Shown piece by piece: positions 25,879 to 28,973 of a stretch of DNA of 32,968 bases. Each line of letters starts with the position of its first letter. The first letter of the stretch is position 1. Both the position numbers and the translations under genes were made by a program. Source of the stretch: an uncultured bacterium (GTDB lineage: Bacteria > Bacillota_I > Bacilli_A > RFN20 > CAG-826); contig CASDXP010000011.1 of the NCBI GenBank assembly GCA_949285455.1, positions 1 to 32,968 of the forward strand, given 5' to 3'. The notes beneath the pieces are model-generated. The model ran no database searches. It was not told where the DNA came from and saw only the letters and a list, made by a program, of their open reading frames with translations.

Positions 25879-27621
25879 TTAGTTATTTTCATAATCGGTG
25901 ACAGCAATGCCTAAATCAGTTAATTGCTTTTCATCTACGCGACTTGGAGCGTGCGACATCGGGCAAACTGCGTTAAGGTTTTTAGGGAAAGCGATGACGT
26001 CACGAATATTATCAGTTTTAGTGAATAGCATAGTTAATCTATCTAAGCCAAAAGCCATGCCGCCATGCGGAGGTGTGCCATATTTGAAGGCGTCGACGAA
26101 GAAGCCGAATCTTCTTTCCACTTCTTCTTTGCTCAAACCTAAAATTTTAAAAATTAATTGTTGCATATCGCTACGATAAATTCTCATCGAACCGCTACAA
26201 GTTTCTTGTCCATTGATGACTAAATCGTAAGCGTAAGCGCGAACTTTTAAAGGATCGGATTCTAAATATTTTAAATCTTCATCGTGTGGGCGAGTGAAAG
26301 GATGATGCGTGGAAGTAATCGAACCATCTTCCGCTCTTTCGAAAAGTGGGAAATCGATGATGAATAAAATATCAAAGATATTTTTATCAATCAAAGATAA
26401 CTTTTCACCATATTTTAAACGTAAAGCACCTAAACCATTAGAAAGACGTTGATAATTCGAAGAAGCAGCAACAAATAAGACATCTCCATCCTTTAGATCG
26501 TAATCTTTAATAATGTTAAGCTTATCTTCATCGCTCATGAATTTAGCGATGCTAGAAACAATTTCACCATTTTCCATCTTGATAGCCACAAATGTCGCAT
26601 TTTTATCGTATTTATGGATGAGACTAGTTTCTTCATCGATGACTTTTCTTGAAGTTAAGTGAGCGACATCGTGCACCTTAATGCCGCGAATACGATGACT
26701 TTCATCCTTGAAAGGAGCGAAATCGATCTTTCTTAAATCATCGTAATCTTCGATTTCCATCGCAAAACGTGTATCTGGCTTATCTGAGCCATATCTTCTT
26801 ATCGCCTCTTCGTAAGTGAGACGTTTGAATGGCTTTTTAATATCTAAAGATAAGACGTCTTTAAAAAGAGTAGAAATAAAATTTTCGATAAATTTTAAAA
26901 TTTCTTCTTGCGTGATAAAACTCATCTCGATATCAATTTGAGTGAATTCGGGCTGTCTATCCGCTCTTAGGTCCTCATCTCTAAAACAACGAGCGATCTG
27001 ATAATATCTTTCTAGACCACCGACCATCAAAAGTTGTTTAAATATTTGTGGACTTTGCGGTAAGGCGTAAAATGCACCATGATGTAATCTAGAAGGTACG
27101 AGATAATCTCTTGCCCCTTCTGGCGTCGATAAATTTAAGATAGGTGTTTCTATTTCATAGAAGCCTAAACTATCTAAATAACGATGGACGCTCATCTTAA
27201 TTTGATGACGCACTCTCAATCTTTCTTGATTGATTGGTCTTCTTAAATCTAAGTAACGATATTTAAGACGGACGTCTTCTAAAGCATCGGTCTTATCGTC
27301 GATTATTAAAGGTGTCGTCTTCGCTTCGCTTAAAATGTTAAGATGAGTTACTTCAATTTCAATTTCGCCTGTCTTCAAATTCGCATTCGCATTTTCTCTA
27401 CGTCTCACCACGCCTTCAACTTCTAAAACGTATTCATGATGGACGTTTTTTGCTACTTCTTCATCTTTGATGACAAGTTGCACGATCCCACTTCGATCAC
27501 GTAAATCGATGAAAGTTAATCCTCCTAATTTACGAATTCTCTTAGCGAAGCCATAAACTTTCAAAGTTCGACCTTCGTCTTTTAAAGAAATTTCACCATT
27601 TCTAGTTCTTTCTAAATCCAT
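25879..27621 (-). CDS. aspS: Aspartyl-tRNA synthetase
   Basis: AspRS charges tRNA-Asp. The N-terminal OB anticodon-binding domain (KVYGFAKRIRKLGGLTFIDLRD) precedes a class II core with motif 2 (ARCFRDEDLRADRQPEFTQ) and motif 3 (GMAFGLDRLTML). The bacterial GAD insertion is present between them, so it is the long bacterial type (580 residues). NGQETCSGSMRI replaces the usual NGxELGGGSxRI, a small departure at the amino-acid/ATP pocket. Whether it also charges tRNA-Asn cannot be told without gatCAB and asnS. The start codon follows hisS by 14 bases, with AAGGAA inside the gap. Confidence 0.96.
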   Translation of the reverse strand: MDLERTRNGEISLKDEGRTLKVYGFAKRIRKLGGLTFIDLRDRSGIVQLVIKDEEVAKNVHHEYVLEVEGVVRRRENANANLKTGEIEIEVTHLNILSEAKTTPLIIDDKTDALEDVRLKYRYLDLRRPINQERLRVRHQIKMSVHRYLDSLGFYEIETPILNLSTPEGARDYLVPSRLHHGAFYALPQSPQIFKQLLMVGGLERYYQIARCFRDEDLRADRQPEFTQIDIEMSFITQEEILKFIENFISTLFKDVLSLDIKKPFKRLTYEEAIRRYGSDKPDTRFAMEIEDYDDLRKIDFAPFKDESHRIRGIKVHDVAHLTSRKVIDEETSLIHKYDKNATFVAIKMENGEIVSSIAKFMSDEDKLNIIKDYDLKDGDVLFVAASSNYQRLSNGLGALRLKYGEKLSLIDKNIFDILFIIDFPLFERAEDGSITSTHHPFTRPHDEDLKYLESDPLKVRAYAYDLVINGQETCSGSMRIYRSDMQQLIFKILGLSKEEVERRFGFFVDAFKYGTPPHGGMAFGLDRLTMLFTKTDNIRDVIAFPKNLNAVCPMSHAPSRVDEKQLTDLGIAVTDYENN

Positions 27622-27635
27622 AATATTTATTCCTT

Positions 27636-28973
27636 CTATTCATCCTTATGATGATGACGACAGCAATGATATTCTTCATCGTCATTTTCTTCATGACAAC
27701 AATGATGTTCTTCTTCGTTTAATAATGCGAGAAATTCCTCCAAACTCATCGCTTTTTGTACTTGTGTTTCTAAATCTTTAACTTGAATAATTCTTTCTTT
27801 TTCTTCCTCTTCCCCGACGAGAATCGCATATTTAATTTTGTTTTTAGAAGCGTATTTCATCGCGCTAGAAACCGATTTTGTATTTAAAGCAATATCAGTT
27901 TCTATACCAGCGACGCTAGAAAGATAATAACGTACGAATAAAGCATAAGTTCTTACATTTTCATCTTCCCCGATAGGAATGACATATGCATTCGGGGCTA
28001 AGATAAAATTATCGACGTCCGCATGAGTTTTTAAATACATGACGAAACGATCGACACCTAAAGAAAAGCCGACGCTAGAAAGACTTGGCCCACCTAATTG
28101 TTCCACTAAGTGATCGTAATGTCCACCAGCTAAAAGCGCTCCTAACTCCAAATTATCTTCCGCATAGATTTCAAAGACGACGCCGCTATAATAATCTAGG
28201 CCTCGCACTAAATTTTCATCTAATTGGTAATCGATACCCATATCATCTAATATGTTTAAGATGCGAGTAAATTTATTTTTATCTTCTTCACTTAAATAGT
28301 CTTTAAGTTTTGGAGCATCTTTTAAAATTTCTTGGTCTTCTTTTACTTTGCAATCGAGCATGCGTAAAGGATTTTTTTCAAATCTTTCCTTACAATCCCC
28401 GCACATGTCATCTAATTTAGGCGCGACGTAAGCTTTTAAAGCTTCCATATATTTTTTTCTCGATTCATCGCTTCCTAAATAATTGATCTTAAGTTTAGCG
28501 GGAATGGAGAAAGATAAAAATATTTCATAGGCTAAAATGATGACATCGACATCTTCTTCAACATTGGAAACACCAATCGATTCGACACCGAATTGGATGA
28601 ATTCACGTAGACGACCTTTCTGCGGTCTTTCATAACGGAAAGCTGGGCCTAAATAATAGGCTTTATAAGGAAGATGTGCGGTCGCATAAAGTTTAGCGTT
28701 GACGAACGCTCTTATGATGGAAGCGGTATGCTCTGGTCTTAAAGAAATGCTTCTTCCACCTTTATCTAAAAAAGAATACATCTCTTTTCTTACGATATCG
28801 CTACCCCCACCTACAGAACGTAAAAACAATTCGCTCATTTCGATCGTCGGAGTCGAAATAGGGACGTAATTAAATCTTTTAGCAAGAGCGATAATTTCTT
28901 CTTCGCTCGCTTCATATAATGCCGCATCGACACCGATTAAGTCGTGCGTGCCTTTCAAGGTTTGATAATCCAT
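27636..28973 (-). CDS. hisS: Histidyl-tRNA synthetase with a His/Cys-rich tail
   Basis: HisRS charges tRNA-His. Class II motifs are clear: RPEHTASIIRAF (79-90), motif 2 FRYERPQKGRLREF (112-125), the HisRS-specific LVRGLDYYSG, and motif 3 with GVDRF. The anticodon-binding domain ends near residue 418. Beyond that sits an unusual tail of about 27 residues: EEEHHCCHEENDDEE, then YHCCRHHHKDE, with seven His and four Cys in two similar blocks. This is not part of normal HisRS and looks like a metal-binding extension. The gene has a GAAGGAAAA ribosome site, follows rel by 61 bases, and is followed by aspS, the usual order in Bacillota. Confidence 0.96.
   Translation of the reverse strand: MDYQTLKGTHDLIGVDAALYEASEEEIIALAKRFNYVPISTPTIEMSELFLRSVGGGSDIVRKEMYSFLDKGGRSISLRPEHTASIIRAFVNAKLYATAHLPYKAYYLGPAFRYERPQKGRLREFIQFGVESIGVSNVEEDVDVIILAYEIFLSFSIPAKLKINYLGSDESRKKYMEALKAYVAPKLDDMCGDCKERFEKNPLRMLDCKVKEDQEILKDAPKLKDYLSEEDKNKFTRILNILDDMGIDYQLDENLVRGLDYYSGVVFEIYAEDNLELGALLAGGHYDHLVEQLGGPSLSSVGFSLGVDRFVMYLKTHADVDNFILAPNAYVIPIGEDENVRTYALFVRYYLSSVAGIETDIALNTKSVSSAMKYASKNKIKYAILVGEEEEKERIIQVKDLETQVQKAMSLEEFLALLNEEEHHCCHEENDDEEYHCCRHHHKDE

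Follow-up and report, generated by a model that had tools for sequence, protein, structure and literature searches.

A histidine- and cysteine-rich, probably metal-chelating tail on histidyl-tRNA synthetase recurs across a bacterial class

The histidyl-tRNA synthetase (HisRS) encoded in the window (the whole stretch of DNA that was analyzed, 32,968 nucleotides) ends in a short tail in which His, Cys, Asp and Glu predominate, and tails of similar composition recur, in variable order and length, on the HisRS of many other members of its class. Judging by their composition and by analogy with known proteins, these tails are probably disordered, metallothionein-like appendages that chelate metal, whether their purpose is tied to histidine charging or HisRS merely carries them. 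The features of the window that are relevant to this analysis are collected in Table 1.

Table 1. Features of the hisS region of the window
Feature	Coordinates	Strand	Basis or remark
hisS, histidyl-tRNA synthetase, 445 aa	27636..28973	minus	TIGR00442, PF13393 and PF03129 matches; start ATG at 28973, stop TAG at 27638-27636
His/Cys-rich acidic C-terminal tail, residues 419-445, NEEEHHCCHEENDDEEYHCCRHHHKDE	27639..27719	minus	sequence
First tail block, HHCCH	27693..27707	minus	direct reading
Second tail block, HCCRHHH	27648..27668	minus	direct reading
aspS	25879..27621	minus	its start lies 14 nt beyond the hisS stop codon

Apart from the tail, the window protein is an ordinary HisRS. It matched the TIGR00442 hisS profile over its full length with 418 bits (curated cut-off, 287), and the match to the model stops at residue 410. 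The VRGLDYY region is invariant in the HisRS alignment, the window protein included. The nearest sequence with a solved structure is that of Staphylococcus aureus HisRS (1qe0), and when the predicted model was compared with known structures it matched HisRS crystal structures (E 6e-42). The core also carries three cysteines (Cys 191, 194 and 208) in a CxxC...C arrangement that is near-invariant among the aligned class members and is present in S. aureus HisRS as well; as read from the sequence, it is a possible metal or redox site. The adjacency of hisS and aspS was observed in 166 of 171 testable loci, 86 with a tail and 80 without. The linkage is equal in tail-less loci, and the tail was thus ruled out as its cause.

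The original prediction of a His/Cys-rich tail of about 27 residues on this HisRS was confirmed, and the coordinates given for the tail and for its two blocks proved exact. The 27 residues include 7 His and 4 Cys (11 His+Cys) together with 11 Asp/Glu; the whole core has only 6 His, so the protein has over twice as many His with the tail as without it. Against the background of the genome sample (2.0% His and 1.04% Cys), the binomial probability of at least 11 His+Cys in 27 residues is 1.7e-10, a value that refers to a single test at a picked site. Site picking is allowed for by an empirical control: among 846 non-overlapping ORFs, which cover 833 kb or 75% of the genome, the runner-up to HisRS had 6 His+Cys in its C-terminal 27 residues and most ORFs had 0-1, and no second protein with a similar tail was found. 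The HHCC codon pattern occurs at three sites genome-wide; at the hisS site it is in frame with the local ORF, and at the other two it is not. An assembly error or a frameshift was ruled out, since congeners with 85-87% core identity have their own open tails with HHCCH units.

The structure of the window HisRS was predicted as a single chain with AlphaFold2 on a 33-sequence alignment (mean pLDDT 86). In this model the anticodon-binding domain ends with a helix (residues 411-423), after which the pLDDT is below 50 (residues 424-445). By this prediction, the tail extends from that helix as a flexible, disordered appendage.

A search for the tail in related hisS genes covered 234 distinct HisRS genes, all from the class of the window and mostly from metagenome-assembled genomes; named relatives include "uncultured Bacilli / Erysipelotrichaceae / Bacillales bacterium" and Candidatus Onthovivens. 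A draw from the whole phylum likewise returned members of this class only. At least four His+Cys beyond the conserved core were found in 110 of the 234, which contradicts an absence of the tail from all close relatives, the outcome that the original proposal had named as grounds for its rejection. The remaining 124, with fewer than four, include members of the window's own family, which indicates that the tail is dispensable. Both His and Cys are present in 82 of the 110 tails, His without Cys in 16 and Cys without His in 12. Pooled, the tails contain 16.4% His, 16.5% Cys, 31% Asp+Glu and 7.8% Gly, so that, relative to the window genome, Cys is enriched 16-fold vs 8-fold for His, and their median net charge is -7. 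The motifs CC, CCC, CxC, HEC, HHH and HxH recur, the longest His run is at most 3 in most tails, and the order of residues is scrambled between lineages while composition is kept. A Pfam search with six representative tails returned no family above its cut-off, zinc fingers included, and no metallothionein at E up to 10; descent from a metallothionein is thus unsupported, the tails being without any profile match.

HHCC units are found in the tails of each of the congeners G001-G003, whose core identity is 60-87%, and in two of these tails a third His/Cys block is added. The HHCCH unit is repeated in L002, whose tail ends in ...EHHCCHHQNEDDEHHCCHKEDEENEHHCCCSNHHKEK, and in L003, and is present in L004 (...KRHHCCHHEEDGEHECHCHHEEEEKKN). 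Within the window's family and order, tail length ranges from 0 to 105 residues. The richest tail, that of L129, has 105 residues with 17 His and 25 Cys (42 in all) and an internal duplication; the 101-residue tail of L160 is also internally duplicated; the tail of L026 is rich in CxC, that of L025 terminates in EGEHHHHHEE, that of L062 has Cys only, and L027 is essentially tail-less. Farther away, the tails of family f17 (L205 and L216) contain CDCGDDCHCGDDCHCH repeats and those of family f18 (L313 and L317, from genomes of 2.4-3.0 Mb) CCGGHGHG repeats. The sister families f19, f26, f27 and f28 mostly have short conserved tails with two or four Cys (e.g., GGGCSGGCGSCDGC), and no tails were found in the members read of families f11-f16, f20 and f23. 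The four-Cys form in f19 and f28 (CxxC...CDxC) was observed in L198, L199, L208, L209, L213, L215, L223 and L277-L284, and some members of the group have two Cys only; from its sequence, this short tail may form a compact, fixed site for metal or redox chemistry and is possibly the ancestral form. In three genomes of family f4 (G036, G043 and G053) the HisRS matches were weak or fragmented (best E 1e-10 to 1e-39), which suggests that the HisRS of f4, a family of the same order, has diverged.

The history of the tail was followed on a FastTree tree of the HisRS cores, tails excluded, in which many inner branches are weak. Tail presence changed at least 27 times on this tree, gains and losses being counted together. 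A 174-row tree required 24 changes, of which well-supported branches forced 17, compared with ∼58 when the labels were shuffled; hence, the trait is heritable but labile. Among 19 close pairs, 150 His/Cys codons of the tails were unchanged, 57 differed synonymously and 44 non-synonymously, whereas the other tail codons showed 37 synonymous and 94 non-synonymous differences; these counts are indicative, given the overlap between pairs and the imperfect alignment of repetitive tails. Only 1 of the 9 possible single changes of a His or Cys codon is synonymous. Relative to this expectation, the 57:44 ratio indicates strong purifying selection on the His/Cys residues of the tail. Selection keeps the composition of the tail more than its sequence.

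Within the sampled genomes the His/Cys-rich tail is confined to HisRS. Besides the window genome, this was observed in G298, an unrelated genome of family f18, in which the top C-terminal count again belonged to HisRS (12 in 27 residues) as a single outlier among 446 ORFs, in a 400-kb sample selected to contain the hisS region. A 333-kb sample of G249 that excluded its hisS gave no His/Cys-rich tail of this type.

The metal genes of these organisms provide a setting that weakly fits a chelating tail. No match to ZnuA or to Fur/Zur was found in the window genome; across 62 genomes, ZnuA was without a match in 57 and the Fur family in 36, and tail presence showed no association with either (Fisher p ∼0.4 each). 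The window genome does encode a ZIP-family zinc transporter (PF02535; L176:13565-14398, contig C6) with a His-rich loop, THHHEEEHGC, and with ZnuA and Fur/Zur absent, zinc uptake may proceed via ZIP alone. HisG was not found in 61 of the 62 genomes tested, hence histidine is probably imported. Elsewhere in the window genome (L246:2935-4314, contig C1), one ORF of 459 aa encodes a formamidopyrimidine-DNA glycosylase (N-domain, H2TH and zinc finger) followed by dephospho-CoA kinase, an apparent Fpg-CoaE fusion.

A metal-binding appendage was one of the two roles originally proposed for the tail. The His/Cys/Asp/Glu-rich composition, the predicted disorder, the recurrence throughout the class and the purifying selection on His and Cys all favor it, and from these features we infer binding. 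Clusters of His and Cys amid acidic residues could reversibly hold soft divalent metals; the likeliest ligand would be Zn(II), with Cu, Ni or Cd as further candidates. The tail would then act as the SlyD tail does, as a local metal buffer carried by a housekeeping protein. HisRS was the one protein sampled that had such tails, and from this recurrence we lean, tentatively, to a purpose linked to histidine charging. Free histidine is among the strongest amino-acid ligands of Zn, Cu and Ni, so that metal close to the active site could be removed or buffered by a HisRS tail; the substrate histidine and the enzyme's own cysteines would be kept metal-free. Alternatively, the tail might lower HisRS activity under metal excess, and the near-invariant core cysteines are possible targets of metal poisoning. 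The fullest version of this idea, which we regard as speculative and rather doubtful, is a metal-responsive synthetase, in which the tail chelates Zn/Cu, histidine arrives metal-free and charging is tuned to cellular metal. If that were true, translation would be directly coupled to metal homeostasis in organisms where ZnuA is mostly and Fur/Zur often absent, through a trait gained or rebuilt repeatedly, and on HisRS only.

The composition and the disorder would equally suit a general zinc store for which HisRS is just a stable, constantly made carrier with no role in charging, and this may well be so, though we would put it somewhat below an even chance. Most of the genomes are without ZnuA and full-length Fur-family regulators, and a passive buffer could help them. 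If any carrier would do, however, the carrier should vary, and in two unrelated sampled genomes the tails are on HisRS alone despite the 27 or more changes in presence; the objection is weaker if there was one old origin followed by many losses. A different chemistry, in which the tail is a thiol redox or Fe-S element whose cysteines modulate HisRS in response to oxygen or disulfide stress, or dock a partner like the zinc tail of SecA, would account for the CxxC and four-Cys tails conserved in the sister families, but it is unlikely, given that 16 tails contain His but lack Cys, that the Cys arrangement varies within the window's order, and that the His and acidic enrichment is not needed for a redox role. 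That the tail is a neutral low-complexity extension drifting through repeat slippage is improbable: the highly variable length, the internal duplications in L129 and L160 and the frequent absence of the tail are what slippage would give, but the His/Cys codons are under purifying selection, and unrelated lineages share a biased composition that the other proteins of the sampled genomes do not have.

The second original proposal, that the tail is a His-demanding self-sensing device, fared worst. In this reading, low charged tRNA-His would stall the ribosome at the His-rich end of hisS and thereby alter the expression of hisS or aspS. The excess of tail over core His in the window protein, the start of aspS 14 nt past the hisS stop and the probable import of histidine all speak for it. 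Yet Cys is as frequent as His in the tails and more enriched, the His residues are dispersed with no dominant run of His codons, 12 tails contain Cys but lack His altogether, and the tails of the sister families are mainly of two to four Cys. The order of hisS and aspS is the same with or without a tail, and the His codons of the window tail are CAT, the common His codon of the genome. At the hisS 3′ end no T-box or other Rfam RNA scored above the gathering threshold, and RNA folding was unremarkable (z -0.9). We therefore consider self-sensing very improbable for the tails in general, although for the window species alone it keeps a small probability.

The closest parallel to a metal-chelating tail on HisRS is the tail of SlyD, which is described as unstructured, with an abundance of His, Cys, Asp and Glu and a sequence that differs among species, and is reported to bind up to 7 Ni in Escherichia coli and about 3 Zn in Helicobacter pylori (PMC7055735). 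The HisRS tail is likewise C-terminal, His/Cys/Asp/Glu-rich, species-variable and, according to the model, disordered. The hosts differ: SlyD is an FKBP-type prolyl isomerase and HisRS an essential aminoacyl-tRNA synthetase, for which no hydrogenase partner is implied and whose metal binding is proposed by analogy. The window protein is thus not a SlyD, though its tail may act like one. Klebsiella UreE has an added His-rich tail, HGHHHAHHDHHAHSH, that provides extra metal sites and without which the core function is intact (PMC7055735). The HisRS tail is similarly appended and dispensable; however, UreE is a dedicated nickel chaperone with a tail that lacks Cys, whereas most HisRS tails combine His, Cys and acidic residues. 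Bacterial metallothioneins are short peptides with Cys/His clusters (CxC, CCC) and little other structure. The HisRS tails share clusters of this type, but metallothioneins are free proteins with conserved family profiles, and the tails are fused to HisRS and match no metallothionein in Pfam. The WHEP of human HisRS is another lineage-specific, non-catalytic extension of the same enzyme; it is a folded helical domain, unlike the tail described here, which is predicted to be disordered and is rich in metal ligands. Metal-chelating tails are known on metallochaperones, and no published His/Cys-rich tail on HisRS or on any other tRNA synthetase was found in the open-access literature searched. 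The kind of tail is known from SlyD and UreE, and HisRS as its host protein appears to be new. Its repeated appearance on HisRS only, in a class of small genomes mostly unable to make histidine, points to an unrecognized link between metal homeostasis and translation.
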